This document shows positions 1 through 36,996 of a stretch of DNA of 58,504 nucleotides, one piece after another; position 1 is the first letter of the stretch, and the number at the start of each line of letters is the position of its first letter. The notes beneath the pieces are model-generated. The model had not been told where the DNA came from, did not search any database, and worked only from the letters and a program-made list of their open reading frames with translations. Source of the stretch: Aromatoleum toluolicum (GTDB taxonomy: Bacteria > Pseudomonadota > Gammaproteobacteria > Burkholderiales > Rhodocyclaceae); NCBI RefSeq assembly GCF_012911005.2, contig NZ_WTVS01000035.1:1-58504 (forward strand). The letters are read 5' to 3'. Both the position numbers and the translations under genes were made by a program.

Positions 1-124
1 CCGATTGGCACCGCAAGTTATCCACCGCCGCGCGCTCTGCCTGCGTATGAGGCGCCGCAGGCGCGCGCCCGTGGATAACTTGCTGCCCAGTACCCTTCAT
101 GGCGTCCATCAAACGGGGACAGGG
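1..124. repeat. Inverted repeat next to a REP-like motif
   Basis: A perfect 13-bp inverted repeat, GCAAGTTATCCAC at 13-25 and GTGGATAACTTGC at 71-83, brackets a GC-rich 45-bp spacer that can itself fold. Each arm contains TTATCCAC, eight of nine bases of a DnaA box. Just inside lies AAACGGGGACAGGGTCA (111-127), which resembles the GGGGACAG-type ends of REP elements mobilised by REP-associated tyrosine transposases. The helicase reading frame to the right stops exactly there. No gene is recognised in this stretch. Confidence 0.5.
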
Positions 125-1495
125 TCACAACTGCCCAAGTCGCTCACTCCAGGTCGCGAACGCGACCGACCGCGCTGTCGACAACAGTCCGGTACCATCG
201 ACGACATTTGGCTCAGTACCGATGAGCCAGGTGCCGACCGCCACGGCGTTCTTGATGACAGCGGAGATAAGAACCGTCTGCGCCGATGCCTGAAGCAGCC
301 CCTTGATTTCGGTCAGCAGAAGTTCATAGGTAATGCCCCGTGGTCCGGTGTCGAACTGGTGCCCTTCGTCGTAGACCACCATGCCGATGTGCGTAACCAA
401 GCTCGGTTCCTGTCTGAGCACATACAGCAGCTTCTCCGGCGTTAACACCATCAGGTGGCGCGTTGCGGGAGCGTCCTGGCCAAACAACTCGGCCAACTGG
501 TCGACGAAGTCCAGTTGCAGAGCATCAGAAAGCTCATTGACCTTGACGTCTTCGCCCTTGAACGCTTGGCGCAGCGAAGTGGCAATCTCGTGACACAAGG
601 CGCGGAACGGCGCGACGAGCACAGCGACGCGCGTCCGGTCAGCCAGGAATGCGCTTCGGAGAATGACTTCGACGGAGCGCGTCTTGCCTGCGCTCGTGGG
701 CATTTGGACCACACCGGACCGCCCGGAGAAGAGCCCCGCTTTTCCAAGCAATTTCTGGGATGGCCAGAGCTCCTTCGGGAATCCGGGGCGACGAATTGCT
801 TCAGCCCAAGCGCCGCTGTCCAGCCCACTGAACCCAGGCAACAGGCTCCAGGCAGAGCCCGCCAAGCGAAGCCTGACTATGGCCGACGCCACCTCCGCAA
901 GAACCACTTCCCGGGATGTGCCACTGGCATAAGTTAAGCGACGAAGCTCGCTCAGCATCTCGACGACCGCCTGAGTCGGGGCTCCGTCGTTGAAGTGGTT
1001 AGTCAAGCGGAAGGCAATCTCATGGAGCACCCCTGTTAGCCAATGCCCATCCAGGTTTGGCGGCTGGCGCCAGTCGGCTCGCAGCACCCAGATGGCCAAT
1101 CGCTCGATGGCGCTACCACCCTCGACCGAAAGGCGCCGTGCAAGCACCAAGCTGCTACCAGGACGCTGTCCTAGGAAGTAGCTGGCCGATGCAAGCAGCG
1201 TGACCTCCCGCGTCACCGTCGTATCGAACCGGGAACCCAGGTAGGCGTCGAAGAAGCTCGCTGCGAAGCCTATGTCATCCCGTAGGTCCTCGGCCAGTCC
1301 AGACTGAACGTCGGCCACATCATTCAGCGCTGCCGATGCATCCACCAGTGTCCCAATGGACAACGGGAACAATGCAGCGGGTTCGACCCCCTCTGGCACC
1401 GCGATGTGGGACTCTTCCGGCAGCCCCAGCTCGTACATCTTCCCTTTTGACCGAGTAATGCCGAAGTACCGACGGCTGGTGGACTCAGGCTTCAC
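125..1495 (-). pseudogene. HamB-like superfamily 2 helicase, C-terminally truncated
   Basis: The 456-aa frame has an alpha-helical N-terminal region of about 240 residues, then one RecA-like domain. Visible are a Walker A motif (PTSAGKT, K about 271), a DEGH box (376-379) and an SAV motif near 415. The frame stops right after this, so the second RecA domain with motifs IV-VI is missing. Helicases of this kind (HamB of Hachiman) are usually about twice as long. The GTG start at 1495 lies inside the end of the upstream nuclease gene (11-nt overlap), so the two are translationally coupled. The stop at 125-127 falls within a REP-like motif, suggesting truncation by an element or a rearrangement. 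Assignment to HamB rests on the helicase type and its HamA-like partner; other helicase/nuclease defence pairs (AbpAB-type) are possible. It is probably inactive as a helicase. Confidence 0.6.
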
Positions 1496-2363
1496 CCGCA
1501 GCTCGCTGATAGAGAGCGTGAGCCAGCGTCATCAGGCCTTTGCCCTTGACAGCGATGAGCTTCAGGCGCCCTTTGTTGTTGTGCTCGGCCGCAGAGGTGG
1601 CCTTGATGCCTTCGGTATCGAACGCAGCGTCGGAAAGAATAGCGGCCGCACCGGAGAGAAGCCGGTACGGACGGTCAGCGGCATTCTGAAAGCGCTGCAC
1701 CACCAACATTGAATCTTGCTGACCGGCAAGGTGCATGCGCCGTTTCATCGCAGCTAATGTCTCAGCGGCGCGCAGATAGTCTTTGCCTGAGTCGTTGACC
1801 GCGACCTGCAGTCGGCCGCTGTACTTTCCGCCGCTGAGTTGGGCTTTCACTTCGAAGGTCAGCATCTCGTCAGCGTGGCTGGGTTGCGCCGCGTTGGGGC
1901 ACTTGAAGCCGACGATGTCGACTCCCTTAACGGATTCATCGCGACTCCCTTTCTCGGCGTACTTGCCGCGTGGCACCCAGTAGCCAAGCACGAACTCCAC
2001 GAAGTCCGAGACCAGCAGCTCAGCAAAGTCTCCGGCACGAACGGCGGGTCCTGGCGCGACACTCTCGTCCGGGAAGACGAGTTCCAGCAGATACTCTGCG
2101 CGCGACTTACCTGTGCCCTCGCGCAGGATGTCGAGGTCAATGTCGGGACAGTAGGTTTCACGAAACCGGCGGGCCCACTCACTCAGGCATGGCGCATCGT
2201 CGGGGACATCGAGCTCCCAGACCTCGCACTTATCGCCGGCCGCCAACGTCAGGGACTCTGCCTGCTTCATGTGATGGAGGTAGGTAGGCCCCACCCCTAC
2301 CTTTGGCACAGCAGGTGCAGCAGCGACCTTTGCTGCAGGCTTGGGGTTCGGCGCGCCAGTCAT
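1485..2363 (-). CDS. HamA-like (DUF1837-type) PD-(D/E)XK nuclease
   Basis: A 292-aa protein with the core of a PD-(D/E)XK nuclease: E105 (GDFAE), D139 (GVDIVGF) and E161-V-K163 (FEVKAQ). This layout and the partner helicase downstream match HamA of Hachiman, where the effector nuclease is held by the helicase HamB and released on damaged or invading DNA. The first 25 residues are Ala/Pro-rich and probably disordered. The ATG at 2363 overlaps the methyltransferase stop in an ATGA arrangement, so it is translated as part of the long operon. A GTG upstream at 2384 is possible but lies inside the previous gene. Because its helicase is truncated, the nuclease may now be orphaned, or may have been recruited by the DISARM-like genes upstream. 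The fold is well supported; the family name is inferred. Confidence 0.65.
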   Translation of the reverse strand: MTGAPNPKPAAKVAAAPAVPKVGVGPTYLHHMKQAESLTLAAGDKCEVWELDVPDDAPCLSEWARRFRETYCPDIDLDILREGTGKSRAEYLLELVFPDESVAPGPAVRAGDFAELLVSDFVEFVLGYWVPRGKYAEKGSRDESVKGVDIVGFKCPNAAQPSHADEMLTFEVKAQLSGGKYSGRLQVAVNDSGKDYLRAAETLAAMKRRMHLAGQQDSMLVVQRFQNAADRPYRLLSGAAAILSDAAFDTEGIKATSAAEHNNKGRLKLIAVKGKGLMTLAHALYQRAAGEA

Positions 2364-5300
2364 CTGCATTCCATCTCGTCCCACGCCTCCAGCACCAACC
2401 TACGCGTTCGGTACTCGCCGAAATCACGCATCTCGTTGTTCTTGAGCACGCGGAAGGTCTCGCTGGGGTAGTCCTCACCCATCACGTCAGCGGGGTCGAG
2501 AATGTAGCGAAGTTCGTCACGGGTCAGACCGTAGAGGCGGGCATAGCAGGCGTCGAGTTCGGCACGCAGTTGGGCGCGGCGCTCCGGATTCCACGGAAAA
2601 CGTGGGCCGTCGTAGCCGAGGTCTGCGGCCCAGGGTTTGAGGTCGTCGGCGGTATAGGTGAGTTCGAGGACGCGGGGGACGATGAAGGCGAGGTTGAGGT
2701 CGGTGTAGCGGTCGGGGGGGAGAACCGGCAGCTGCTTGTAAATGAAGTAGTTCATGTGGGTCCCACCGGTCTTGTGACGCGCCACGAAATCGAACACCAG
2801 CGCACACAGATTCGCCAAGAGAGCAGCCGCCGGACGCCAGTCTTTACGGGCGTCGAAGAGCATCAGCGGCATCTGGTTGCCGATGCCGGCCAAGGGCACC
2901 ACCGACGCAATCACCGTCCGCTCATCGGTCGAGCGGCAGATGTCCCGCCACCCCATCAACCAGCCCCGCTCCCGGCCCTTGTCGCGCAGCCGGGCCTCGA
3001 CTTCGACGGCTTCGACCCAGTAGCGCGGGGTGACGCTGAAGGCCGGGTCCTGCTTCTGGGCGGCGGAGACGTCGCCACTGCCGTCCGCCGAATAGGTGGC
3101 CCAGCGGTGGTCGAACTGGTGAATCATCTTGGCTTCGTACAACGGCAGGCGGCTGGGGGCCGGGGTGTCGTGGAACAAGCCGCTGTCGTTGGCCATGTCC
3201 AGTTGTCGCATGAAGCGGATTTCCCAGGGATTGACCTCGGGCGGGCCTTCGGCGATGAGCACCGGCGCGGCCCGGTAGAGCTTCTTGGTCAGCACCGCAT
3301 CCCGCTCGCTGCGGAACACTGGGCAGGTCAGGGTGTTGGGGTTGATGAGGCGGAATTCTTCGGGCGTCAGGGTGAAGTGTTTTCTTTCGTCAGTGAGTTC
3401 ACCGACGCTCAGTGCGAAAAATAGAAAATCTGTTTGCTCTGCTTGCCCCAGAGTCATCAGACAAAACTTGAACCGCTGGTGTCCGATGTCAGCGAAGAGA
3501 CCGGGGCCAGTTCGAAAATCGTAGAGTGAATGCAAGCGGCCCTGTTGAGTCATGCCAGCAAAGAACGCTTTTGTACTATCGTCAGTGGCAATGCCTGTGG
3601 GTACGATAAACCCAGCCCTGCCCTCCTCGCCCATGAGTTGTGCGAAAGTCTCGGCAAACAGCGCATACGTATTCACGTCGCCCACGCCGGTGAGCGGATA
3701 ACGACCAGCATCGTGAGCAAACAGGCTGGCGGCCTCGGCATTGCGTCGCGCTGCTAGGAACTCCGCGTACAAGGCCTGCTCTGCCCCGTTGGGTGGCACC
3801 AGCCCCTGAGCGGCCTCCACCTCCGGGTACAGGGTGTGCAGCAACATGCCCTGGGCCAGCAGCCCGATACGCTGCCCCCGCTCGGCCTTGTGCTGGGCCT
3901 CGGCGACCAGCGGGCTGCGGGTGGCGAAGAATTCTTCCTCCTGCAACTTGATGCGCTCCCATGGCGGATTTCCGAGCAGCACATCGAAGCCGCCCTTGGC
4001 CTTCACCTGCGGAAACGCCTGCCACCAATGTAAGGCCTGCGCGGACAAAGCCGCATCGTGCGCCGAGTCCGCAATGCCCGGGCGCGGGCTACCGCCGTTC
4101 AACACCAGCCACAGGTCCTGGCTGGTCGGCACACGAGCCTCGGACTCCATAGTCTTGGGCAGCACGAAGGCGGCCACAAAAATATCCGCCGCCAGCCGGG
4201 CCTTCGAGGCTGCAATGTTCGCTTCCAGCGCAGCATGAGCAGCACGCTTGACGTCCAATGCCTCCAGGGTGTCGTCCGGCAGTGCCTCGAAAGAAGCAGC
4301 ATCTACCCCTTCTCCCAAGTCCAAGCTCAGCATCTGGCGGGATTTCTCCTTCGCCTTGACGATGGCCTTGAGCGCTTCGCGGTTGGCCTTCTTGATGCGC
4401 TTCACCACCTCAATGTCATCACCGGAAAGCGCATTGAAGGCCTTGTCCGGGATGCCGTCCTGCAAGACAGCCTCGTCCAGCACGCCGAGCAGCGCATCAC
4501 CGCAGCGCAGGTGGGCGTCGAGAAAGGTGAGTGGCCGGTCGGGGGTGTAGGCCTCCAGCCACAGGGCGGTGCGGGCAAGTTCCACCGCCATCGGGTTCTT
4601 ATCCACGCCGTAAATGCAGTGCACCACCACGTCGCGCAGCGCATGGCGGAAGTCGTCCTCGGTGGGGGTGCCTTCCGGGGCGCGGAGCAGGGCCACCTCG
4701 TCGGCGATGCGGCGGGCTGCGGCGAGCAGGAAGTGACCGGAGCCACAGGCCGGGTCGCACACGGTGAGCGCAAGTAGTGCCTTGACCGGTTCCTGCGGGT
4801 TGTCGGTCATGGTGCGGGCGATGACCGGCTCCAGGGCGCTCTTGATGAGTTCCTGCACCAAGCTGTCCGGGGTGTAGTAGGAGCCGGTGAGCTTGCGGGC
4901 ATTGCCCTTGGTACTGCCCTCCTCCTCGTCGCCAATGAAGCCGAATTTGCGCGCGCCACCGAAGACTGCAACCTGGGGCACAAGTTCCAACAGGCTCTCA
5001 TACACGCTGCCGAGCTCTTCGGAATCCATATCGCGGTAGTTCACCCGGGAGAGCGCCGCGCCATCGCGGAAGAAGCAGAGGCCAAAGAGCGCAGACAGCA
5101 GGGCCTGGTTTTCCAGGCGGGTGGCGTCGAGGTCCGGGCACTGAGCGGCATCGAACAGACCGCCAAGGGCCGGCAGGCCGAGGGCGGGCTGCCCCCGGCC
5201 AAGGCCGACGAAGGTGATGGTGAGCACCTGCCACAGGTCGGCGTGACGGTCGTAGCTGCGGCGGCGGGCGGCGAGCTGACGCAAGCGGGTGAGGCTGTAG

Positions 5301-6280
5301 CCGGCCAGATAGCGCTGGCGGGCTTCCGGCGTGGCGTCCGGTGCGAAGATGAGTTCGCGGTCTTCAATCGTGGCCAGGAAAATGAAGCGGTAGATGAGGC
5401 GCAGCAACTGCTCGAAGTAGGCCTGAGTGCTGAGTTCGCCCGCTTCGATGCGGCGGCGCAGTTCGGCGTTGTCCTTGTGGGCGAGAAAGCCGGTGCCGAG
5501 CGCGCGCAGCGCTTCAGTTACACCCACCCTCAGTCGGTCGCGGGCGCGGATGCCGTCTTCCTGAGCGGTGTTGCGCCAGCGCTCCAGCGCGCAGTCGGCC
5601 GGTTCGATGCCGACCTTACCGAAGCGGCTGGCGTGGGCGAGCAGCCAAAGCGCAGTGAAGTCCGGGTAGAGGCCCTCGTTGAAGATGGCTTCCAGGTCGG
5701 CCTCGATGTAGGCCGGTCGGGTAAGGCTGGGGTTGTCGCGCAGGATGCGCAGCTTGAGCCCGTTGCTGACCACTGCCCAGAGGCAGTTGCCGCTGGCGTT
5801 GAGGTATTCCTGTGCGAGCAGGAAGGGCGAGCGGCGACGCACGCCGTCGCCGTGTCGAGTGCTGGGCTTGTCCAGCCCCTGGTCGTGGGCGGCGAAGACC
5901 AGCGGTACCTTGCCCTCACACGCAGCGAAGCCAATCGGGAAGATGCGCTCGTCGAGGGTAAGCTGCCCCACCGCACGCGAGTCGGCAAAGCCCAACACCT
6001 GACGGCAGAAGGGTTCGAGGAAATCGCGCACCGTCACCGCATGGCTGTCGACGTCGGAACGCTCCCGCTTGGCGGAGAAGTCCTGCCAAAGGTTCTGGGC
6101 AATCTTCCAATAGCGGCCGATTTCGTCGCGTAGCTTCAGACCGCGGGGGATGTCGTAGTCGCTTTCCGACTGCTCGGCGGCACCGAGATGCGCGACCTTG
6201 TTGAGAAAGTCCGGCGCGAGCAGCGCCCCTTCGATGGACAAAGCGGCAAAGGCGAGTTCGCGGTTGTGACGGCGAGCCAT
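2360..6280 (-). CDS. drmMI: DISARM-type N6-adenine DNA methyltransferase (DrmMI-like)
   Basis: A 1306-aa class 1 DNA methyltransferase of the Eco57I type. The SAM-binding motif I is DPACGSG (509-515) and the catalytic motif IV is NPPW (771-774). About 480 residues of N-terminal domain precede them, and a target-recognition region of about 500 residues follows. It is expected to methylate adenine in a specific site and so mark host DNA as self. Size and neighbours (SNF2 helicase, PLD protein, DUF1998 helicase) match DrmMI of class 1 DISARM. The ATG at 6280 is chosen because AGGA lies 11 nt upstream; a TTG at 6310 would overlap the preceding stop. No separate restriction subunit is fused here, so cutting would have to come from the PLD, Vsr-like or HamA-like nucleases of the operon. 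Confidence 0.8.
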   Translation of the reverse strand: MARRHNRELAFAALSIEGALLAPDFLNKVAHLGAAEQSESDYDIPRGLKLRDEIGRYWKIAQNLWQDFSAKRERSDVDSHAVTVRDFLEPFCRQVLGFADSRAVGQLTLDERIFPIGFAACEGKVPLVFAAHDQGLDKPSTRHGDGVRRRSPFLLAQEYLNASGNCLWAVVSNGLKLRILRDNPSLTRPAYIEADLEAIFNEGLYPDFTALWLLAHASRFGKVGIEPADCALERWRNTAQEDGIRARDRLRVGVTEALRALGTGFLAHKDNAELRRRIEAGELSTQAYFEQLLRLIYRFIFLATIEDRELIFAPDATPEARQRYLAGYSLTRLRQLAARRRSYDRHADLWQVLTITFVGLGRGQPALGLPALGGLFDAAQCPDLDATRLENQALLSALFGLCFFRDGAALSRVNYRDMDSEELGSVYESLLELVPQVAVFGGARKFGFIGDEEEGSTKGNARKLTGSYYTPDSLVQELIKSALEPVIARTMTDNPQEPVKALLALTVCDPACGSGHFLLAAARRIADEVALLRAPEGTPTEDDFRHALRDVVVHCIYGVDKNPMAVELARTALWLEAYTPDRPLTFLDAHLRCGDALLGVLDEAVLQDGIPDKAFNALSGDDIEVVKRIKKANREALKAIVKAKEKSRQMLSLDLGEGVDAASFEALPDDTLEALDVKRAAHAALEANIAASKARLAADIFVAAFVLPKTMESEARVPTSQDLWLVLNGGSPRPGIADSAHDAALSAQALHWWQAFPQVKAKGGFDVLLGNPPWERIKLQEEEFFATRSPLVAEAQHKAERGQRIGLLAQGMLLHTLYPEVEAAQGLVPPNGAEQALYAEFLAARRNAEAASLFAHDAGRYPLTGVGDVNTYALFAETFAQLMGEEGRAGFIVPTGIATDDSTKAFFAGMTQQGRLHSLYDFRTGPGLFADIGHQRFKFCLMTLGQAEQTDFLFFALSVGELTDERKHFTLTPEEFRLINPNTLTCPVFRSERDAVLTKKLYRAAPVLIAEGPPEVNPWEIRFMRQLDMANDSGLFHDTPAPSRLPLYEAKMIHQFDHRWATYSADGSGDVSAAQKQDPAFSVTPRYWVEAVEVEARLRDKGRERGWLMGWRDICRSTDERTVIASVVPLAGIGNQMPLMLFDARKDWRPAAALLANLCALVFDFVARHKTGGTHMNYFIYKQLPVLPPDRYTDLNLAFIVPRVLELTYTADDLKPWAADLGYDGPRFPWNPERRAQLRAELDACYARLYGLTRDELRYILDPADVMGEDYPSETFRVLKNNEMRDFGEYRTRRLVLEAWDEMECR

Positions 6281-6306
6281 GTTGTTGTGATTCCTGTTCG
6301 CTAGCG

Positions 6307-9159
6307 TCAAGCCGGGATTAGAACGAAGACACCCATGATGTCCACCGGCAGGCTGGGCGTGACGCGATATTCACCACGAGCATCCGACGCCACCCGCACG
6401 CGGCGGTGGTCTTCCAGCAGTTGCTGGGCGCGAGCACGGGCGAGTGATTCCAGTGCGGGCTGAAGCTCGGGTAGCTGCATCAGCGCGCGCTGGATGTGCT
6501 GGTCGCGCAGCAGCGGCGGCATGTTGCGCGCTGGTTCGGCCGTCATCAGCACGCGAGCGGTGGCTTCTTCCAACGGCGTGGATTCGTTGCCAGCAGCCAA
6601 CCCAACCGTGAGGGTCTCCTCGCATAGCAGCAGGCGAGACTGACCCCGATAGCTGACAGTGAGCTGGTGGCGCAGGCGGACCAGCAGGACAGTGGTACGG
6701 GTCTCGACGGCGCCGGTGAAGATGGCTCCTGCCCGGGCCACAGCGTCGAGCGCCGTGTCGGCCTCGACCGACGCGTCGTCCAGCGCAGTTTCCAGCAGGA
6801 AATCCGCCAGTACCGATACGAGCGGGTGGGTGCGATGGATGAACTGCGTGCCCGGCGCAGGCGGCTGATGGAAGTCGATGCGCAGCGTGCCGGCCAGACC
6901 CTCGCCTTCCAGGCGCTCGCGCACAGCTGACGGCAGACTTGAGGCGTGGAGTTTCCAGTGATTCCCGCCGCCCTTGGTCGTTTCCTCCAGCGGGGCACCG
7001 AGCTGCTGGGCCGCACGTTTCACGAAGCGCTCGACGTCGGCTTCGCCACCGAGCACGGCCAGCGTCTTCTGCCACTCGGGCAGCACGTCTTCGGGCTTCA
7101 GGCGGCGCTGGGCGAACAGGGTGCGGTTCTTCGCAGCCTTTTCGCGGGCCGAGGTCCACGCGGTGTCAATGGACTGCTCTGGGTCGCCGAAATCGAGACC
7201 GAGCTGTGGCATGCGGGCGGTGGTCGCGCCCTTGCGCAGCAGCACCGCACCGACCAGGGCCTGGGTGAGCTTGCCTTCGTCGTCAGGCATGGGCACCAGC
7301 ACCCCGAGTTCCTTGCGGATGCTCTCGGCCTTGCGCAGGATGACCTGCAGCACGGCGCCGTCGACCGGGTTGTCCTGGCCATAGAGCATGGTGGTGCGCA
7401 CTTCTCGCGCCTTCTGGCCGAAGCGGTCGACACGACCTTCACGCTGCTCGTGGCGCGTGGGGTTCCACGACAAGTCGTAGTGCACCACCGCCGTGAAGAG
7501 GTTCTGGAGGTTGATGCCTTCGGACAGGCAGTCGGTCGCGACCAGGATGCGCTGTTCGGCCTCGCCCATGGCCTCCACTGCGACCTCCCGCTCAGCGGGC
7601 GCGAACTGGCCTGTAACCGGTGTGACCTGATGGTTGCGGAACGCAGTGCGCAGGTTCTCGGCGACGTAGTGGGCAGTGGCAATGTAGCGGCAGAACACCA
7701 CCGGCTGAAAACCAGCCTCAGTGAGTTCTTTCAGGTGGTCGATGAGCTTCCTGAGTTTGGGGTCCTTCGTCGGACCGGCCAGCCCCTCGGCACGGTCAAT
7801 CAACACGGAAAGTCGAGCACCGTCTTCGGTACGGGCTCCCGGTTCGATGTCCTGGGTGGAGAGGTCGTCTTCCACGCCATCGAGAACCCGCTCGCGGCCC
7901 TGCTCTTCCGCCTCTTCCAGGGTGAGCTCGACTTCGGCAGCATCCGTCTCGTCAGTCGGCGCGGTTCCTTGAAGGCGCGTTCGCAGGGCATTGACCGCTG
8001 CGGCTGGCGATGAGGAGATACAACGCAGCAGGGCGAGCGCGGCCCACCAGCTCATGCGTTGCTGCAAGAGCCCCTTGCCTTCGGCACGCTCGACCAGGTC
8101 GCGTGCATAGTCGAGCACCTCATCGAAGAGCCGGCCCCACTCACCGGTGAGCTTGTAGGTGATTTCGGCAGAGAGCCGTTCGGGGAAGACATTGCGGTCC
8201 TGCCATTCATCGATGTCAGGGCGGCGGCGCTGCACGAAATGATTGGCGAGTTGTTCGCGCAGTGGCTTGCGACTATCCGAAGGGACGTCTTTCAGCTCAC
8301 GGAATTCGGGGTGGAGCAAACCGAGCAGGTTGTAGAAGGCCTCCTCATCACCCGAGTGCGGGGTAGCGGTGAGCAGGACCATATGGCGCGAGGCATCCTC
8401 CGCCAACCCCTTGAGTAGGGTGTAGCGCTTCTGTTTGCCCTGGCCACTGAAGGTGCAGGTGTGAGCCTCATCGACGATGACGCACTCCGGGCAGGCGCGC
8501 TGAAATTCGTCACGGCGGCGGTCTGACTTGATGTAGTCCAGACTGACCACGGTAAAGGGATAGGCCTCGAACACGGACTGGTTGGCAGGCAAGCCGCGCT
8601 CCAACCGGTTAGCGGTGGTGTTACGCACCACTACCGCATTGATGTGGAAGCGCTCCTTCAACTCGCGTTGCCATTGCTCGCACAGGTGAGGCGGACACAG
8701 CACGGCCATGCGATTGATTTCGCCGCGGTCGAGAAGCTCACGGACGATGAGCGCCGCTTCGATGGTCTTGCCGATACCAACGTCATCTGCAATCAGCAGC
8801 CGGACAACCTCCTGTTTGAGCGCCATCAGCAAGGGAACGAGCTGGTATGCGCGCGGCTCGACGGCGATATTGCCGAAGCTGCGGAACGGACCAGCGCCGG
8901 TGCGCAATTTGAGCTGCAGTGCATCGCGCAGCAACTGGCCAGCGGCAAAGTTGGACGCCTGCTCGGCTGTGGGCCAAGGGAACGTTGCCGGACCTACCGG
9001 ACCCGGCTCGATAGGCAGGTAGATGAGCGTGGCGTCGTCGTCGGTCGCACCGAGCGGACGAAGGTGCAGCGTGTCGTCCGAGGACTGCGGCAGGACTATC
9101 CACTCGCGGCCACGGGCAGAGACGAGGGAGCCGGGTTGAAATTGAACCTCAAGAGACAT
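6307..9159 (-). CDS. drmD: SNF2-family helicase, DrmD-like
   Basis: A 950-aa SNF2/RapA-type DNA translocase. The N-terminal 90 residues form a small barrel-like region. Walker A is DDVGIGKT (K131) and Walker B is DEAH (230-233), followed by a TATPH motif and an insertion rich in acidic residues. The C-terminal RecA domain has the ATDCLSEGINLQ and QREGRVDRFGQ motifs, and about 300 further residues follow. In class 1 DISARM, DrmD is the SNF2 protein next to DrmMI, as here. The start at 9159 (MSLEVQF) is preferred to a TTG at 9189. It overlaps the end of the PLD gene by 11 nt, and the next gene follows after 26 nt, indicating one transcript. The motifs are complete, so the enzyme looks functional. 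Confidence 0.8.
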   Translation of the reverse strand: MSLEVQFQPGSLVSARGREWIVLPQSSDDTLHLRPLGATDDDATLIYLPIEPGPVGPATFPWPTAEQASNFAAGQLLRDALQLKLRTGAGPFRSFGNIAVEPRAYQLVPLLMALKQEVVRLLIADDVGIGKTIEAALIVRELLDRGEINRMAVLCPPHLCEQWQRELKERFHINAVVVRNTTANRLERGLPANQSVFEAYPFTVVSLDYIKSDRRRDEFQRACPECVIVDEAHTCTFSGQGKQKRYTLLKGLAEDASRHMVLLTATPHSGDEEAFYNLLGLLHPEFRELKDVPSDSRKPLREQLANHFVQRRRPDIDEWQDRNVFPERLSAEITYKLTGEWGRLFDEVLDYARDLVERAEGKGLLQQRMSWWAALALLRCISSSPAAAVNALRTRLQGTAPTDETDAAEVELTLEEAEEQGRERVLDGVEDDLSTQDIEPGARTEDGARLSVLIDRAEGLAGPTKDPKLRKLIDHLKELTEAGFQPVVFCRYIATAHYVAENLRTAFRNHQVTPVTGQFAPAEREVAVEAMGEAEQRILVATDCLSEGINLQNLFTAVVHYDLSWNPTRHEQREGRVDRFGQKAREVRTTMLYGQDNPVDGAVLQVILRKAESIRKELGVLVPMPDDEGKLTQALVGAVLLRKGATTARMPQLGLDFGDPEQSIDTAWTSAREKAAKNRTLFAQRRLKPEDVLPEWQKTLAVLGGEADVERFVKRAAQQLGAPLEETTKGGGNHWKLHASSLPSAVRERLEGEGLAGTLRIDFHQPPAPGTQFIHRTHPLVSVLADFLLETALDDASVEADTALDAVARAGAIFTGAVETRTTVLLVRLRHQLTVSYRGQSRLLLCEETLTVGLAAGNESTPLEEATARVLMTAEPARNMPPLLRDQHIQRALMQLPELQPALESLARARAQQLLEDHRRVRVASDARGEYRVTPSLPVDIMGVFVLIPA

Positions 9160-10516
9160 TTTTGCTGACTGCTTTGTAATATGGAACAATCAATTCACGA
9201 ACATCGAACCAGGCATCACGAAGCCACTCACGTAGAGCTTCTGAATCTTCGCAATCGATAATTCCATCGAAATACTTCAGGACGTGAACAAGCTTGCTTT
9301 TCGGTCGTTCCTTGCGCACACCGGCCAGCAAGGTATTACATAGACTTTCAACAAAACCGTCGAAGTGTTCATTCAAGGCCGGCACTCGTTGAAAATCATA
9401 ACCTGAAAGATAGCGCTGCCTAAAAATACTGTTGTTGGATAAAGTCATATCGCGCATCAGTTTTTTTCTAGCGGATTCGCGATAAGCTCTTTCATTCAAG
9501 CGACCATTTTTCATATCGAGATACTCCACGGCACTATCGCCGAGCATCTCCGCAGCCTGAGATACACGTTCCAGCATCTCACTAATCCACGTCTCTTGAA
9601 CTTCTGGACCGGACTGAGATATTTCTTCCAAAACTAGAGCTCGCTTCCTCTGACCTTTGCCGAAAATTATGTTCTCTCGCTTAAGGTTCTCGTAGCAGTC
9701 ATCGCTCGCCCAAAACCCAAAATACGTCTCAACAAAATATTGGGCCCGCCATGGCGGTGCGCTATCTACGATATCGACCTCAAGCTGGACGTATGGGCGG
9801 ACAAGCTTGGTCGACTCGGACTCCCTAGAAAACTCGCTCTTTACGAATGCTTCAGCCTCAACTCCAACTGGAAGTGGCTTCTTGAGGCGTACCGAAAGCT
9901 TTCCGAAGGATTGGTCGCCCTCGTACCTATGGCAAAGAATCCCTCTTCGGAGCCACGCGTCAAACGAGTCCACCGTAGATTTAGGAACTACTTTCACCGC
10001 TGGAAGCCATAAAGCACCGGAGCCATTCAAGTCGAAGCACGCGGCTGGAACTGCTCCTTTTGAGCGAAGGTCGTCAAAGTAATGGAGAACTCCTGACAGG
10101 TCTGACTGAGTAAAAACTCGCGTAGCGAGAAAGGTCTCCGCATGAAGACTGAAGCCCTGCATTGAGGCATTTGCTGAACCAACCAGAACACAACGCTTTG
10201 TCTGCGTCGAGTTATTTGCGTCCCCATTCTTCCATTCAAACAGATAGACCTTTGCATGCACCAAACCATTACCTTTTTCCGGCGCTACTCGTTGAAGCTT
10301 AAGCCTTGTACGGCCGCGAGCCGGAAACGCACTGGAAATATCCTGCAATACGTCATCAGGTACTCCATCGTCGGCATAGAGCACAAGCTCCTTCGGCTTG
10401 AGGTCGTTGATGCTCAAAATAAAATCTGCAGTCGGGTAAGGCCCCATCACCGTGACGGAATGCAATTTAAAGGTTTGCCCCGGAGACACGTAGTCCAGAA
10501 TTTCTTTAAGCTTCAT
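9149..10516 (-). CDS. PLD-type nuclease, DrmC-like
   Basis: A 455-aa protein with a phospholipase D half-motif: H87-x-K89 (HAKVYLF) followed by GSANASMQG (113-121). Only one such motif is evident, so a dimer would be needed for a complete active site. PLD proteins in DISARM are called DrmC, which fits the neighbours. The remaining 300 residues show no motif I recognise. The base use is clearly poorer in G+C than in the genes on either side (many AAA, AAT and TCT codons), pointing to a separate origin within the operon. The ATG at 10516 lies 18 nt after the preceding stop. A PLD-like domain also occurs in other helicase-linked defence loci, so the DrmC label is contextual. Confidence 0.7.
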   Translation of the reverse strand: MKLKEILDYVSPGQTFKLHSVTVMGPYPTADFILSINDLKPKELVLYADDGVPDDVLQDISSAFPARGRTRLKLQRVAPEKGNGLVHAKVYLFEWKNGDANNSTQTKRCVLVGSANASMQGFSLHAETFLATRVFTQSDLSGVLHYFDDLRSKGAVPAACFDLNGSGALWLPAVKVVPKSTVDSFDAWLRRGILCHRYEGDQSFGKLSVRLKKPLPVGVEAEAFVKSEFSRESESTKLVRPYVQLEVDIVDSAPPWRAQYFVETYFGFWASDDCYENLKRENIIFGKGQRKRALVLEEISQSGPEVQETWISEMLERVSQAAEMLGDSAVEYLDMKNGRLNERAYRESARKKLMRDMTLSNNSIFRQRYLSGYDFQRVPALNEHFDGFVESLCNTLLAGVRKERPKSKLVHVLKYFDGIIDCEDSEALREWLRDAWFDVRELIVPYYKAVSKNVS

Positions 10517-10534
10517 CGACGATGTATCTCAAAT

Positions 10535-13500
10535 TTAGTGAGGACTTCCGAATAGGCCTGCGTTTGCTTTGAAGACCTCAGCCCAGAGGTGGACGTCTTT
10601 GGGAAAACGCACGACGTAGTAGCCACCTGCCTCCAGGCACGCGTTGATGGTCGCGTCCCGCCCGGCCTGTGACTCTGCGTCGTGATGCGGCCCATCGATG
10701 AAGACAGCCGCCTTCCAGTCCTCATAGAAGAAGTCGGCGGACGTATGACAGCGCTCGATGGTGTATTGCCCCTTGTCCGGTAGCCGATAACCATGCTCGC
10801 GCACATAGGCCAGCCAGGCTTGTTCCAGGGTGCTTCCGGAAACGCGTTCGAGTTCGCCGCGCTGTTGCTCTGCTGTGCGCCCGAAACTCCCCGACTCTCC
10901 CCTGGCGCGTGATAGCTGGCACAGGATATCCAAGACCTTGCCTTCGTTGTCTGCGTCCTGCCTGTCGATATTCAGGTGGTCAGGCTGGTTGTAGTAGGAG
11001 AGCAGGCAGCGGTAGCAGCCCGCCTCGCAGATGGGCTTGCCGTCGGAGCCAAGCTCTTCTTCCAGATGCGCGCGGCCCCAAATGCCCGACACGGGTCGAT
11101 GAAAGTGCATGATGGCGAGAGCTTCGCCTGCGACCCTCGCCAACGCATCGGGCTCGGTCGCCAGACGGGTCAGGACACCTGCCCCGCCTTCGGCAGACTC
11201 ATAGAACAGGATGGAGCGGCGCAGGTCGGCCTTGGGCAAGGGTTCGGCCATCAGCTCGCTTTCTTCGAGCTGATAGACCGCCTCGATGCCGCGCTTCAAC
11301 GCATATTGCAGCGTCGCCATGGTCTTGATATCGAGCTCTTCGAGCGGGCGCACGATGAGCACGTTGCGGCGGTCTTCCACGTAGGGAACGATGCGCTGCG
11401 GCGGGGTCTTGTCGGGCGGGGTGTCCGGGTCGGGCTCGCCGGCTTCTTCCGCTCCGCCAACCCAGTGCCCCGTCACCGGGTTAATCATGAAGCCGAGGAG
11501 GCTCTTCTCCTTGCGGCGTCGCCAGCCAAGGTTCATGCGCCAGACGGTCGCTGCAGGACCGTACAGGAGCTCCAGCACCGGCGTGTCGCCTTCCTTCATG
11601 ACTGCGTGCATCACCTGCAAGCGTGCATCCTGCTCGCCAAATTGGATGGTGGTCTGCATCTCGTAGCCCTGACGAGTGCGCTCCTCCTCGTTGGCGGTGA
11701 TGCGCTCGGCGCGTTTGGTCGAAACGTTTTCGATACGGTAGAGGTTCTGCACCGCCACAGAGTCGGCAAGCGGGGCATTGCACGACACGCAACGGTCGGC
11801 ATCGCGCTGATTGCGGAAGTGGCCGTAGCCGCAGGCGGGGCAGATGCGGGCCACTTCGGTACTGAGCTTCGCACCGACTGAAACCTGGTCTTCGGCTCCC
11901 ACAGAGAGCATGGCGCGCACGACGCGATACTGGCTGCCCTCGTGATAAATGAGGCTGTAGGGACCGAACTCGGACAGAGCGAGGAAGCGTGGACGCGAGA
12001 GGAAATTCTCCCGACCAATCTTGCCCTTGCGCGCCGGAATGTAGGCCATCAGAGGCAGACGCGGGAAGTTGTAGCCGGGCAGGAAGCCCTGACTGGCGAG
12101 ATATCGATAGGTGTAGAAGTCCGAATTGGCCGAGCCCGACTCCTGCAGCAACAGGCTCTGCTGACGGAAGGCTTCGTCATGGCGCTGCTTCGCGTCTCGC
12201 CGGTCGCGTTCGCTGGCAGCCGGGTTGTTCATGACCTTCTGGTTGATTTCCATCTGCCGCTTGGTGGCGGCAAAGAGGTCGCGCCAACGATTAAGCGCAT
12301 TGTCAAAGGACTGGAAGGCGCGGCGGAACACCTCGTCGGCAAAGGTCGGCGTATGCCAGGGCGCCTTCTCCTGGGTGAGTTCGCCCTGGAGCATGTCCAA
12401 GACGCGAAGCCCGCGCTCGTGCGCCCGCTTCTGCGGGGCATCCGCATCCATCTGCTGCCGATAGTCGTCGGTCAGCGGCGCAGCGGGGTCGTTCATGTCG
12501 AGAAGACCGCGCACGCTGTTGTCGAGCTTCTTGCCGGTTTCGGCAAGCCAGATGGCATGGAGGTGACTCTGGATAAGTTCGCGGTTGGCAAGGTCGAGCG
12601 TGGGCGGGTTGACCTGCCCATGGACCATGCGCACCGGGTCACGGAAGAAATACTGGTCGTGCGGCGACTGTGCGGCACAATAGGTGATGACCAACGCAGG
12701 CTGCCCGGCGCGCCCGGCCCGGCCACTGCGCTGGGCGTAGTTGGCCGGGGTGGGCGGAACGTTGCGCATATACACGGTATTGAGCGACGAGATGTCGACA
12801 CCCAGCTCCATGGTCGGCGAGCAGAACAGCACCGGCAGCCATTCGAGCGGCTTGCCATTCGAGGCCTGCCAGTCGTCGCGGTCCTTCTGAGTGAAGCGGA
12901 AACGAGCTTCACGCTCCAGCCGTTCGTTCTGTTCGACCTGGGCAGTGTGCTCACGCGCTTCGAAGTCAAATAGCCGGTGTATCGGGTCGGCGAGCATACC
13001 GGCGATATTGCCGTACAGGCTGCGGAAAAAGGCGTTGTCGTCCGCGCTCTTCTTGCTCTTGCCCTCACCAAGCGTCCACAGGAGACCCGTGCCGTTGAGC
13101 TGATATCCGGTGATACCGAACTCGGTTTCCTCCGACACGACCAGCCCATAGGACTTTGCCGCCTTGAGGAGCGCCTTGATGACTTCCTCGCACTGCTCGT
13201 CCTTGAGCTTGCTGACGTGCGGGTTATCGCTCTCGTCCGCTTCGCGCCAGTTGCTGGGGCGCTTGAGCTCCCGACCGAGCTTGGAGCGGGCACTGCCCGA
13301 CACAAGGTACTCGACATTCCGCCGGTCTTCGTCCCGGGGCTTGGCACCGACGATGAACCAGTTCGAGGAGATGGGGTTCTCGTCCTCGGAGAATCCCCAG
13401 GGTTCGCGCAGGTTGGCGTAGCTGGCGGTCTTGAGGCGGTCGAGCTCGCTACGGTCGAGATAACGCGAGGCGAGGCACAGGCCTTGGCGCATGGCATCGA

Positions 13501-15835
13501 AGAGCATGACCAAAAGCCGCTTGCGGACATCGGATGACGCTGCCTGCAATGCAACGGGCGCCTCCGACCATTCGACCGCATCAGCCGCCAGGTCGTCGAG
13601 GTCCTGATACTCGATATGGACCAGCCCCAGCTGTTCGAGGTTGGGGTTGTTGAAGCGCCAACCACGACGCAGGTCGAAATAGACTCGATAGCCAAGGATG
13701 GCACGCATGACGTCCTGTACCTGACGCCGGGCATTGCCCTTGATGTCGGGCTCCTGCATGTACTCAGCACGCACACCTGGGTCGTCACGGTCGAAGCCGA
13801 GCCCCTTGAAGACAGCCTCGGCAACCTCGCCCTCGGTCAAGCTCCCGCCTGCTTTCTGGACGGCAGAAAAAAGAGCAGCCCGCTGCAGCAGCACCTGCAG
13901 GAAGTCATTGAAGTGGCCGACCTGAAGCGCGGCATCCTGCCGGTTGTCGGTGAAGCCCAGCACCTTCTTGGCCTCTTCCTTAAGCTGCTCGTCTTCCTCG
14001 TAGAGGTAGCGCAGTGCCGACAGGGTGAGCATGGTTGTCGCCGAGCTCCGCCCCTCGCCCGACAGGCCCGTGAGCCGCAGCGACTCCTTGCCCGCAGTCG
14101 GATGCACCACACCACAACGCAGGCAGAAGGCAAAGTTGCCTGGAATATACCAGCCGGTTGTGCCGTCGCTGGTGTGGCGCCCTTCTGCATCGACTCGGAC
14201 ATGATGTGGCTGACGCTTCTTGTAGTTCGAGCGCAGCTTCAGGTCACCGTCTTTCTTGGGTTCCAGCCAGGTCTCAGGATAGCGGTCGAGCGTGTCGTTC
14301 CAGACGCCAGTGGTGTCCGGCATGAAATAGCCGTTCTTGACGTCTTCGTCCTCGTGGCTGCGCTCCTCGATATTGCGCGGGTTAAACACGCGGCCGCTCG
14401 AATTGTTCTCGTCCCAGACCGGGACGTATTCCTGCCCGCACTCGCGGCAGAAGTGTAGTGCGTAGAGCCGGCGGGCGCGGTCACCGGGAACGAACTGGCT
14501 GCCTTCCAAGGTGAGGTAACGTCGGCCTGCGGGTTCGAGGGTGCCGTATACCTTGCTGCCCCCGGAGATGAACTGGTGGAGCTTGAAAGCAAAGAGGCTA
14601 CGCCCGCCCTCAGAGGTCGGCTTGTCGGTGGTGCGATAGGCAAGCAGGAGAAAGTCCGCCAACACCTTCAGGGCTAGGTCGATATCGACACCAGCATCGA
14701 ACGCCAACTGTTCGGCAGCGGCATCCAGGGTGACGGGACGTGCCCGCCGCCACTTGCCCTCGTCACGGGTCAGGCCCAGCGTCAGTTCGACCCAGACAGC
14801 AAGCGGGTGCTGAGCGAGCGCCGTATAACTGGTGGATTCAGGCACGCCAGCACGAATTGCTTCGGCCAGTTGTGGCCGAATGTGGTCGACGAGCACTTGC
14901 TCGGGCGTGACCCGCTGCAGCGTTTCAGTGATGACACCGGCGGCCGTGATGCGGGCGCCGAAAAGGCGGCGGGCCACCTCTGCGACCTTTTCGTTCTTGG
15001 CCTGCTCGGTCCCTTCGGTGGCCATCGTCGCCGAGGTGCCGATGCACTGGAGTTTTTCGGAGAGCGCCTCGCGCACTCGACGCACGAGCAGCGCAACGTC
15101 AGCGCCTTGCCGGCCGCGGTATGTGTGCAGTTCATCCAGCACCAAGAATCGCAGGCCTTTGGCATTGCGAATCACCGCCTTGTCCTTGTCATCCTGCCGG
15201 GTCATGACCAATTCGAGCATCATGAAGTTGGTGAGCAGGATGTCCGGCGGGTTCGCCGCCAGGCGCTGACGCGCTTCGTCGCTCTCCTGACCGGTGTAAC
15301 GGCCGTAGGTTACGGGCGGATGGTCACCATAGTCGCCCAGGAACTTGCCAAGCTCTTCAAGCTGGCTGTTGGCGAGCGCGTTCATCGGATAGATGACGAT
15401 TGCCCGGGTGCGAGGGGTCGGGTCGGCGACCTTAGCCTTTAGGATGGCATCGACGACCGGGATGAAGTACGCCAGTGACTTGCCGGAGCCGGTACCGGTC
15501 GTCAGGACATAGCTCTCCCCGCTCTGGGCGAACCCGATAGCCTCTTCCTGATGCTTGAAGAGCGTGAGGGATACGCCCATGCTGGCAGCAGATTTTCCGG
15601 CGCGGAAGATGCGTCCGCACTCGGGATGCAGCGCACCAGCGGCGACCAGTGCCTCGACGGTACCGCCTGACTTGAAGTTGGGATTGACCTGTACCAGCGG
15701 CGCAGGCCAATAGCGACCGGAGTTGTAGGCCTCATCGACGAAGGTCTTGATGTCCTCGGCGCGTATGCGGGTAAAGCTGCGGGTAAACGCCGCGTAGTCG
15801 GTGACAAGTTTCTCCCGAAACTCGAAGACATCCAT
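10535..15835 (-). CDS. Giant helicase-DUF1998-nuclease fusion (DruE / DrmA+DrmB-like)
   Basis: A 1766-aa protein. The N-terminal helicase has Walker A TTGTGSGKS (K119), DELH (234-237), a TSATM motif and a second RecA domain ending in QRSGRAGRAGQ. A DUF1998 region follows toward the C-terminus, with the ESAEGGAG motif and the Cys cluster CEAGCYRCLLSY. The last 110 residues look like a Vsr/DUF559-type PD-(D/E)XK nuclease (SADFFYEDW, VFIDGPHHD, VVRFP). Size and order match DruE of Druantia, yet the neighbours are DISARM genes, where helicase (DrmA) and DUF1998 (DrmB) are normally separate. The start at 15835 is chosen because CAGGAG lies about 8 nt upstream; an earlier in-frame start would add an unlikely 51 residues. 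It heads the operon. Confidence 0.8.
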   Translation of the reverse strand: MDVFEFREKLVTDYAAFTRSFTRIRAEDIKTFVDEAYNSGRYWPAPLVQVNPNFKSGGTVEALVAAGALHPECGRIFRAGKSAASMGVSLTLFKHQEEAIGFAQSGESYVLTTGTGSGKSLAYFIPVVDAILKAKVADPTPRTRAIVIYPMNALANSQLEELGKFLGDYGDHPPVTYGRYTGQESDEARQRLAANPPDILLTNFMMLELVMTRQDDKDKAVIRNAKGLRFLVLDELHTYRGRQGADVALLVRRVREALSEKLQCIGTSATMATEGTEQAKNEKVAEVARRLFGARITAAGVITETLQRVTPEQVLVDHIRPQLAEAIRAGVPESTSYTALAQHPLAVWVELTLGLTRDEGKWRRARPVTLDAAAEQLAFDAGVDIDLALKVLADFLLLAYRTTDKPTSEGGRSLFAFKLHQFISGGSKVYGTLEPAGRRYLTLEGSQFVPGDRARRLYALHFCRECGQEYVPVWDENNSSGRVFNPRNIEERSHEDEDVKNGYFMPDTTGVWNDTLDRYPETWLEPKKDGDLKLRSNYKKRQPHHVRVDAEGRHTSDGTTGWYIPGNFAFCLRCGVVHPTAGKESLRLTGLSGEGRSSATTMLTLSALRYLYEEDEQLKEEAKKVLGFTDNRQDAALQVGHFNDFLQVLLQRAALFSAVQKAGGSLTEGEVAEAVFKGLGFDRDDPGVRAEYMQEPDIKGNARRQVQDVMRAILGYRVYFDLRRGWRFNNPNLEQLGLVHIEYQDLDDLAADAVEWSEAPVALQAASSDVRKRLLVMLFDAMRQGLCLASRYLDRSELDRLKTASYANLREPWGFSEDENPISSNWFIVGAKPRDEDRRNVEYLVSGSARSKLGRELKRPSNWREADESDNPHVSKLKDEQCEEVIKALLKAAKSYGLVVSEETEFGITGYQLNGTGLLWTLGEGKSKKSADDNAFFRSLYGNIAGMLADPIHRLFDFEAREHTAQVEQNERLEREARFRFTQKDRDDWQASNGKPLEWLPVLFCSPTMELGVDISSLNTVYMRNVPPTPANYAQRSGRAGRAGQPALVITYCAAQSPHDQYFFRDPVRMVHGQVNPPTLDLANRELIQSHLHAIWLAETGKKLDNSVRGLLDMNDPAAPLTDDYRQQMDADAPQKRAHERGLRVLDMLQGELTQEKAPWHTPTFADEVFRRAFQSFDNALNRWRDLFAATKRQMEINQKVMNNPAASERDRRDAKQRHDEAFRQQSLLLQESGSANSDFYTYRYLASQGFLPGYNFPRLPLMAYIPARKGKIGRENFLSRPRFLALSEFGPYSLIYHEGSQYRVVRAMLSVGAEDQVSVGAKLSTEVARICPACGYGHFRNQRDADRCVSCNAPLADSVAVQNLYRIENVSTKRAERITANEEERTRQGYEMQTTIQFGEQDARLQVMHAVMKEGDTPVLELLYGPAATVWRMNLGWRRRKEKSLLGFMINPVTGHWVGGAEEAGEPDPDTPPDKTPPQRIVPYVEDRRNVLIVRPLEELDIKTMATLQYALKRGIEAVYQLEESELMAEPLPKADLRRSILFYESAEGGAGVLTRLATEPDALARVAGEALAIMHFHRPVSGIWGRAHLEEELGSDGKPICEAGCYRCLLSYYNQPDHLNIDRQDADNEGKVLDILCQLSRARGESGSFGRTAEQQRGELERVSGSTLEQAWLAYVREHGYRLPDKGQYTIERCHTSADFFYEDWKAAVFIDGPHHDAESQAGRDATINACLEAGGYYVVRFPKDVHLWAEVFKANAGLFGSPH

Positions 15836-16395
15836 ACGAGCCCACTCCTGTTGCTCCGGCGGTCGCCTTGCTTCAGCGCGAAGGCGGCATATCTGTTCGC
15901 GGAAAAATATTGTTGCAGATGCCGATTGTACTGGCGAAACTATGGCCAGACACGATGAAACGCGCGCGCAGCTTGGATTTCGAGGCACTGGTTATGCCTT
16001 TCGTCTTACTCCTGCATTGAATTCCTTCTCCGCTCACTTTCGCCGCCTTCTGGTGGCCCAGCCACATGTGGCTTACCCATCTGCCCGCCGTAGTCGGTGC
16101 TACCGGCGTTTCCGGATAGCAGGCAAGCAGCGATGCGGTAGTTGCCTTCAACCAGACGTGGTACAGGAACACGGTCCGATAGTTGAGCCTCTCCTTGAGG
16201 GGCTCGACTGGCGACGATGCTGCGATTCGACACGCGAGACAGTACCCGCCGCGCGTAGGGACGCTCTCCGTACTGTGAGCTCTACGCGAATAGAATCAGC
16301 GAGTGCGCACAACCTTTTTGCCCAAATTGATTCAAATCAGGGTGATTAAATTCTGCCCCTTGATAGGATTCGCCCTTTTTGCCGAGGACCGCTTT
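15836..16395. other. Intergenic region with palindromes, no gene recognised
   Basis: This 560-bp region separates the divergent defence operon and the small plus-strand gene, so promoters for both should lie here; I cannot fix one with confidence. The stretch from about 15950 to 16290 is GC-rich and rich in short inverted repeats, including the perfect palindrome GCCACATGTGGC (16061-16072). Read on the minus strand it has the look of structured RNA, possibly the remains of a group II intron, but no reverse transcriptase gene is present. No convincing open frame was found. Confidence 0.35.
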
Positions 16396-20005: not shown

Positions 20006-20014
20006 GAGCCGAGC

Positions 20015-20446: not shown

Positions 20447-20505
20447 ACCTTGCCCCATGACATTTGAGACTCTGATTGTCAGGGCAACGCCACAACAAAG
20501 GCAAG

Positions 20506-23289: not shown

Positions 23290-23405
23290 CCTCTTGTTCT
23301 TTCCCGAATCAATTTCACCATTACCCTGCCGCTATGCTTTGCCCGCTCCAGCCAAGCATCATGCCTCAGATACCCACATCTGGTCGAAGTCGCTATGATT
23401 TTGGT

Positions 23406-23795: not shown

Positions 23796-23796
23796 C

Positions 23797-34570: not shown

Positions 34571-34817
34571 AGGTCGAATTATGCAGGAGTCGGGTTCGCC
34601 TGCCTGTCGACCTCTGCATGCCTTCCAAACGGCCATCGAGGCGCAGCCGGCAGCAAGGACCAGAGGTAACGAGCTTTATAGACCGGGTGCGGACGGTGCA
34701 GTGAAGCCCCCGGAACTCCCCCCGTTCCCCGGAGGGCGCTCGCGAGGCCGTAATCAATGCCTCACTAGGTAAGCGCCTCTCCGTCCGTGTGCCGGCAGGT
34801 CCTTGCTTCCAGGAAAA

Positions 34818-36851: not shown

Positions 36852-36945
36852 TGGCGGAGAGTGAGGGATTCGAACCCTCGATACGAGTTTTAGCCCGTAT
36901 GCTCCCTTAGCAGGGGAGTGCCTTCGACCTCTCGGCCAACTCTCC
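36852..36945 (-). tRNA. tRNA-Ser(GCT)
   Basis: The minus strand folds as a 94-nt class II tRNA: acceptor GGAGAGT pairs with ACTCTCC, the anticodon stem-loop is CTCCC-CTGCTAA-GGGAG with anticodon GCT (serine, AGC/AGT codons), and the long variable arm is present. The T arm is GAGGG-TTCGAAT-CCCTC, and CCA is encoded at 36852-36854. lysC lies 51 bp upstream on the same strand. The accessory region begins beyond its 3' end, a common site for island integration. Confidence 0.95.
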
Positions 36946-36996
36946 AACCTTTGAGCCCGACATCATAGCGACCCAGGGCCCATCGGTCAAACTTAA

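Follow-up and report, generated by a model that had tools for sequence, protein, structure and literature searches.

The window, a 58,504-nucleotide stretch of Aromatoleum toluolicum DNA (contig C218), carries on its minus strand a row of six consecutive open reading frames (ORFs) encoding proteins of 1817, 455, 960, 1316, 299 and 456 residues. It is quite likely that this row is an anti-phage system of ARMADA Type I, located in an island associated with a tRNA-Ser gene and carrying exchangeable defence cargo at two junctions, in which the Hachiman layer is probably off. The first-pass annotation had read the row as a DISARM/Druantia hybrid, which was not borne out for the core genes. Its description of a single minus-strand operon of six consecutive ORFs was confirmed, as was the start at position 15835: DNA homology to relatives sets in at 15835 or at most 8 nt away in all seven loci compared, so that this start is taken to be correct. 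The end placed at position 125 had to be given up, since the gene row continues on contig C212, where HamB is followed by the remnant of a GmrSD gene and then by HNH.

The core was assigned to ARMADA Type I by gene content and order. According to the main text of the preprint by Bell et al. (2025, PMC12458937), these systems generally comprise a YprA homologue followed by a BrxHII-like and then a PglX-like gene, and the same order is found here with one gene inserted after YprA. The large helicase is a YprA protein of the DruE type with an MrfA Zn-binding (DUF1998) domain (MZB, 35.5 bits) by both Pfam and PADLOC, and its PADLOC scores are about 300 bits (301) for DruE1/DruE3 versus 47 for DrmA; the proposed fusion of a DruE-like helicase with DUF1998 is thus correct. 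It does not represent a local replacement of drmA and drmB by a giant protein, as had been suggested, because a fused YprA helicase is the rule in ARMADA Type I. The SNF2 protein scores 718 bits with the PADLOC model for DpdE (PDLC02853), 299 with DrmD and 207 with BrxH, and reaches 202 bits with the NCBIfam DpdE model, for which the cut-off is 500. The methyltransferase is of the Eco57I/PglX type, with 212 bits for DrmMI and weak PglX scores that lie under the NCBIfam cut-offs. The earlier DrmD-like and DrmMI-like labels therefore have their scores behind them, but the two genes fit the BrxHII and PglX roles of ARMADA Type I. PDLC02853 covers nearly the full length of the SNF2 protein (6307-9189) and is its best PADLOC model; given that a model named for DpdE scores best on an ARMADA Type I SNF2 protein, automated calls may mislabel such loci as Dpd. 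A Dpd cluster was itself rejected, as only helicase models match (DpdE on the SNF2 protein and, weakly, DpdJ/DpdF on YprA) and base-modification genes are missing from the row.

The C-terminus of YprA, which contains the stretch DFFY..FIDGPHH..VVRFP, is a candidate nuclease of the Vsr/DUF559-like kind. A model of the last 173 residues (predicted local distance difference test score, pLDDT, 84) matched the catalytic domain of I-Bth0305I (3r3p), a homing endonuclease that belongs with the Vsr-like nucleases, with a match probability of 0.98. Of 65 ARMADA Type I loci, 25 retain the motif D[GS]PxH, including all seven of the clade to which the window belongs. An association between loss of this motif and presence of an HNH gene (Fisher p 0.006 in the 65 loci and 0.015 in the 44 loci with at least 4.5 kb) was dropped, because only three changes occur on the tree and the independent-pairs test failed.

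These 65 loci come from a survey seeded with the SNF2 protein, which at E ≤1e-50 was found in 19 of 399 genomes of the order, the window included. Fifteen of the 18 others were used, with L042-L044 left out as weak (28-32% identity), and a profile built from 15 SNF2 proteins was run against genome contigs, from which 80 of at least 528 confirmed stretches were taken, and against viral contigs, which gave one locus. Removal from the 97 loci entered of three duplicates, two without an SNF2 call and 27 without YprA or PglX or with less than 1.2 kb behind pglX left 65 non-redundant loci, window included, each with the whole core trio and no less than 1.2 kb of sequence past pglX. Where the codon-based gene caller found no tail a longest-ORF caller was used, the former having missed some cargo. 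The profiles for the LmuB-like and HNH families drew on sequences of this set itself (no more than 21 and 12 rows, respectively) and so provide group labels, not independent tests. A phylum label is available for 49 loci (36 Pseudomonadota, five Myxococcota, four Verrucomicrobiota, two Spirochaetota, one Bacillota and one Gemmatimonadota), the window being among the 16 that have none.

In 52 of the 65 loci a co-directional gene follows pglX within 120 bp; 48 of these next genes lie within 30 bp and 30 overlap pglX. The first gene is LmuB-like in 26 loci, HNH in seven, HamA in two and of some other kind in 17, among which three pairs each share a family. Modules found behind pglX comprise GmrSD, an AAA ATPase with an RNA ligase, a Dsr1-like pair, a dGTPase-like gene, the Drt1a reverse transcriptase, PDC-M65, PDC-S39 and an AAA_5 ATPase, and some of the loci that bear modules are without an HNH gene. 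A gene of the HNH family was found behind pglX in 43 loci, at -58 to +5356 bp in 41 of them and from further sequence in the window and L055. Inserted genes occur between YprA and SNF2 in five loci and between SNF2 and PglX in ten. The LmuB/DUF2326-like family, whose members have about 650 residues (for example L034:17572-19515), stands directly behind pglX; two members gave low PADLOC LmuB scores of 31 and 51 bits, and one has a weak NCBIfam SMC score. This family is a candidate for a regular ARMADA Type I gene that is not named in the main text of the preprint (PMC12458937), in which the terms "Hachiman", "HamA", "Lamassu" and "SMC" are likewise missing and "HNH" occurs in one reference title only.

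The two loci with HamAB behind pglX are the window and L055, from a metagenome-assembled genome of the Burkholderiales. In L055 the row reads pglX, HamA, HamB, whole GmrSD and HNH, and compared with the window HamA is 73% identical, the first part of HamB (which is split in the window, see below) 74% and the second part 60%. The closest core belongs to L052 of Thauera sp. 28, in which 94-95% of the YprA and SNF2 residues are identical to those of the window; behind its pglX there are an AAA ATPase, an RNA ligase, a whole GmrSD and an HNH gene. Three differences separate the two rows. Between YprA and SNF2 stands a gene of 455 residues in the window versus 226 in L052. In PglX, identity per 60 residues falls to 35-50% over residues of about 781-1020, compared with 72-98% over residues 1-780 and 50-91% past 1020, a pattern that suggests a swapped recognition domain. 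The third difference is the stretch from the pglX stop to the end of gmrSD: DNA homology ends at 2378, where pglX ends, and resumes inside gmrSD.

In a FastTree phylogeny of the 65 SNF2 rows the sister of the window is L052 and that of L055 is L057, which has LmuB-like cargo, so that two changes are needed to account for HamAB. With each HamAB locus standing beside a sister that bears other cargo, HamAB seems to have been exchanged. The HamA proteins of the window and L055 share 70% identity in the alignment that includes five further HamA sequences, versus 39-47% to those five, and since they are closest to each other we infer, as to route and direction, that recombination in flanking genes probably carried the module from one ARMADA locus to another, or else that it is old and has been replaced often. 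Relatives of HamA are rare, and were found in three of 399 genomes of the order (its own and one short fragment included), in two of 368 genomes of the class (its own included) and in 12 plasmid records. In G1011 (L135 2-13603) a gap of 18 bp separates HamA from the preceding brxA of a BREX operon that also has PglX, a BrxHI-type helicase and PglZ, and in G146 (L131 2-13467) HamA lies about 770 bp past a homologous row whose genes are named by their likeness to G1011. On the three plasmids inspected the 500 bp upstream of HamAB contain no co-directional gene; behind HamAB there is nothing co-directional in one, and in two a hypothetical gene that overlaps it or follows at 40 bp. HamAB thus looks like exchangeable cargo and not like a fixed fifth or sixth component. 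That a second defence pair has been added to the operon, as first proposed, is correct, and hamA overlaps pglX. Its status as a fixed part does not hold up, given its presence in two of 65 loci, the other cargo beside the near-identical core of L052 and the interruption of HamB, and a fixed six-gene system was rejected on the counts for HamAB (2/65) and for the 455-residue gene (1/65). Nor is the pair confined to one lineage next to such genes, which would have pointed to a chance join: it recurs in L055, at the same junction, and beside two BREX operons.

Based on the protein families and on experiments with Type II systems, PglX would mark host DNA at a site that its recognition domain determines, and the SNF2 and YprA helicases would act on unmarked incoming DNA, which the Vsr-like tail or an accessory nuclease would cut. 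In relatives the variable slot behind pglX is occupied by modules of the LmuB-like, GmrSD, AAA, Dsr1-like, reverse-transcriptase or Hachiman kinds, and HNH often stands at its far side; in the window it holds HamA-HamB where L052 has the AAA ATPase, the RNA ligase and the whole GmrSD, with a GmrSD stump left before HNH. HamAB would add a second, suicidal layer triggered by DNA damage, which is probably off here through the split of hamB. The genes, their order, the motifs, the variation of the slot and the interruption of hamB are observed; the biochemical steps, the direction of exchange and any functional coupling of cargo and core are inferred.

Several observations weigh against the interpretation as an ARMADA Type I system with a cargo slot. 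The system tested with phage is, in the main text of PMC12458937, of Type II and not Type I. For the nuclease at the YprA C-terminus, the DUF559 match of 19.4 bits is under the cut-off of 20.6, the 3r3p match has an E value of 0.08 and ranks fourth after three mitoribosomal chains of lower probability, the fold search gave no match at E 0.001, and the D[GS]PxH motif (DGPHH in the window) is missing from 40 of the 65 loci. For the slot, 13 of the 65 loci are without a co-directional gene within 120 bp of pglX, yet eight of those 13 have an HNH gene further down; in 22 no HNH gene was found behind pglX. Moreover, the HNH search accepted any co-directional ORF in the fetched DNA, across intervening genes that are possibly broken, so that membership of those intervening genes in a single operon is not implied. 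Lastly, the joint between C218 and C212 is spanned by no contig and is deduced from the two profile halves, the repeat and homology.

It is somewhat less likely than not that the modules have accumulated passively, the place behind pglX being no more than a convenient site of recombination within a defence island, the modules independent of the core and the short gaps a matter of compact packing; the identity of the core as ARMADA Type I is accepted under this explanation. The plasmid copies of HamAB that stand without a co-directional upstream gene, the great diversity of cargo types and the foreign composition of the 455-residue gene all agree with it. Less easily accommodated are the overlap of pglX by 30 of the 52 next genes, a count taken in ARMADA Type I loci only, and the recurrence across several phyla of HNH genes of one family in 43 of 65 loci. 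At the opposite extreme, it is conceivable, if rather doubtful, that the interval from pglX to HNH is a true docking slot, with modules co-translated with the methyltransferase that serve as interchangeable backup effectors and fire when ARMADA fails or in response to damage from its cuts; HamAB may then be a backup common to ARMADA and BREX. The exchangeable-cargo interpretation yields a rule that is open to test, namely that ARMADA Type I keeps its core and changes a likely recognition domain, an internal accessory gene and the downstream module. Should core and cargo work together, the slot would offer a ready catalogue of natural partners, in which Hachiman stands, as a sensor of DNA damage, beside a restriction-like system.

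The families of both Hachiman proteins were correctly recognised at first, although HamB turned out to be a fragment. HamA matches PADLOC model PDLC00161 with 332 bits and keeps the catalytic D..ExK residues; a phmmer search of the PDB gave no match for it (E up to 0.01). HamB matches PDLC00188 with 580 bits in PADLOC, and its 456-residue frame fills the profile, which has 1037 positions, only from 1 to 451. The second part (profile positions 444-1035), which includes the second helicase domain, was found at G000:C212:196000-197787, at the contig end. A repeated mobile element begins at window position 127, and its first bases supply the hamB stop, with the break after codon 456. A 6-bp repeat, CAGTTG, is present on both flanks, at window positions 133-128 and on the C212 side. 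The 127 bp of the element at the window end also end contig C10, and the body of the element is unassembled. In L055 HamB is unbroken and reads GQLWFF across the break point. On these grounds hamB appears to be split inside the helicase by an inserted element. The helicase activity of HamB activates HamA, and both catalytic activities are needed for activation, according to the main text of Tuck et al. (2024, PMC12278908); with HamB interrupted, the Hachiman pair is probably inactive in this genome, whereas the ARMADA core looks intact. That HamB is instead a functional short form, or the break an assembly error, is quite improbable. PADLOC does contain HamB models as short as 322 and 509 positions, and the inserted element has no assembled body, but the missing part with the second helicase domain was found where a contig ends and the same repeat is present, and the HamB copies of L055 and of both BREX-linked loci are full length (1040-1140 residues by longest ORFs).

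The 455-residue gene between YprA and SNF2 is foreign-looking. Its GC content is 0.483 and that at third codon positions 0.489, whereas the five remaining genes have 0.61-0.64 and 0.69-0.80, respectively. The earlier designation as a PLD protein stands insofar as one HxK..GSxN motif is present; the PLDc_2 match (E 0.001) is under the Pfam cut-off and there is no PADLOC, DrmC or NCBIfam match, so that the protein can be called weakly PLD-like. The gene was found in one of 399 genomes of the order and one of 398 of the phylum, both being its own genome, and among the 65 ARMADA Type I loci in the window alone. The sole relative found is a Microvirga plasmid protein with 29.5% identity, adjoining a TmtA-like gene; a viral scan gave no relative and phmmer against the PDB no match (E up to 1). 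A single-sequence fold was uninformative (pLDDT 34). The view that all six genes form a DISARM/Druantia hybrid working as one machine, for which the operon order, the overlaps and the DrmD-like and DrmMI-like scores speak, is scarcely credible with a YprA protein that is DruE-like and hardly DrmA-like (301 versus 47 bits), no separate drmB, no DrmC match, HamAB in one and the 455-residue gene in none of the other 64 core loci, and an interrupted HamB.

Beyond the second HamB part, C212 carries a gene of 172 residues, which matches the C-terminal 156 residues of the L052 GmrSD at 86% identity and is thus a GmrSD remnant, followed by the HNH gene of 399 residues, 83% identical to its L052 counterpart. 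Identical 97-bp copies of tRNA-Ser sequence are found at window positions 36852-36948 and at C212:152252-152348 (L150 7253-7349), and are direct repeats if C218 and C212 join through hamB. An integrase gene (Phage_integrase, 77 bits) adjoins the C212 copy; within the window, no repeats were found near the tRNA gene. The identical copies and the integrase indicate that the operon probably lies inside an integrated, tRNA-Ser-associated island, about 82 kb in size not counting the element. The coordinates of the features are compiled in the table. The junctions of the row are tight: the gap between YprA and the 455-residue gene is +18 nt, and the latter overlaps SNF2 by -41 nt by longest ORF or -11 from the likely ATG at 9159. 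SNF2 and pglX overlap by -4 nt, pglX and hamA by -25 by longest ORF, or by -10 from the ATG at 2369 and -4 from that at 2363, and hamA and hamB by -11 nt.

Table. Positions of the six-gene row and associated features in the window.
Feature	Position	Strand	Remarks
YprA-family helicase, ARMADA ArmC-like	10535..15835	-	DEAD RecA1, Helicase_C, MrfA Zn-binding/DUF1998; longest ORF 10535-15988
455-residue accessory gene, PLD-like by motif	9149..10516	-	between YprA and SNF2
BrxHII/RapA-like SNF2 helicase, ARMADA ArmA-like, 960 residues (longest ORF)	6307..9159	-	longest ORF 6307-9189
PglX-like adenine methyltransferase, ARMADA ArmB-like, 1316 residues	2360..6310	-	DPACGSG and NPPW motifs
HamA, DUF1837 family, 299 residues (longest ORF)	1485..2369	-	start 2363 or 2369; longest ORF 1485-2384
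HamB N-terminal part	128..1495	-	ORF 125-1495 including stop from element; profile positions 1-451 of 1037
End of mobile element in hamB	1..127	-	6-bp repeat CAGTTG at 133-128
tRNA-Ser(GCT)	36852..36945	-	probable island end

Other genes of the island region resemble defence genes. At window positions 18878-24858 there are a protein with a NO VEIN C-terminal (DUF3883) domain and a PDC-S36 score, a UvrD/GajB-like helicase whose zinc ribbon is of the topoisomerase type, and an HNH protein. A possible further defence unit at 25136-32004 consists of a Sacsin/TmtA-like gene overlapping an HEPN_Swt1-SNF2 helicase (DrmD, 394 bits). The island also contains, at 32840-34636, a protein like the exonuclease VII large subunit with an N-terminal DUF5710. 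On C212, CRISPR genes of the Cas3-like, GSU0053 and GSU0054 families (L150 84-6020) lie just beyond the tRNA-Ser copy.

Compared with known systems, the row shares with DISARM class 1 the DrmD-like helicase and the DrmMI-like methyltransferase but has no separate drmA or drmB and no DrmC match. With Druantia it shares DruE as the nearest named family of the large helicase, and differs in having methyltransferase and SNF2 partners. The partners of DruE in Druantia are DruH or DruA-D, none of which is among the matches listed for the other five genes. In ARMADA Type I, by contrast, the order is the same and YprA is likewise nearest to DruE; the main text of PMC12458937 describes YprA proteins that are most similar to those of Druantia and end in a Vsr-type nuclease, and names the BrxHII-like and PglX-like genes as common to ARMADA Type I and DISARM class 1. 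The difference is that the paper has three genes, whereas the window has an extra PLD-like gene within the core and HamAB behind it. The E. coli Type II system of the same text protects against phage without killing the cell and needs all four of its genes; in Type II a helicase-methylase pair comes first, followed by YprA and a GajB-like helicase with a RelE-like domain, and no such gene is among the six of the window. The ARMADA II islands described there are also found at tRNA genes, in agreement with the tRNA-Ser island seen here.

Hachiman is described in PMC12278908 as a damage-sensing, cell-killing defence, and the window resembles it in having HamA with D..ExK followed by an overlapping HamB, and differs from it in that the pair stands in an ARMADA operon and HamB is interrupted. 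The two systems are both named in the main text of PMC12904381, where they are listed apart, and ARMADA and Hachiman as one locus were not found in the literature searched (main texts without supplements, with few subscription papers). Precedents for the cargo idea do exist. The auxiliary or backup effectors proposed for BREX (Rakesh and Krishnan 2026, PMC12839542) are a case in which a large methyltransferase-helicase operon recruits exchangeable nuclease modules of kinds also seen here, and the main text lists GmrSD, HNH, OLD/ABC ATPases and Schlafen among them; it mentions Hachiman twice, one passage naming only the helicase class of HamB. Unlike BREX, the six genes of the window are without PglZ, BrxC and BrxA and have another helicase core. 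Unrelated immune systems, Hachiman included, repeatedly acquire the same nuclease-protease pair according to the main text of PMC12799240, and together with the BREX case this makes the cargo idea plausible for ARMADA Type I. In the literature searched, neither HamAB as cargo nor the variable stretch from pglX to HNH was found described; the theme parallels the published auxiliary effectors of BREX.

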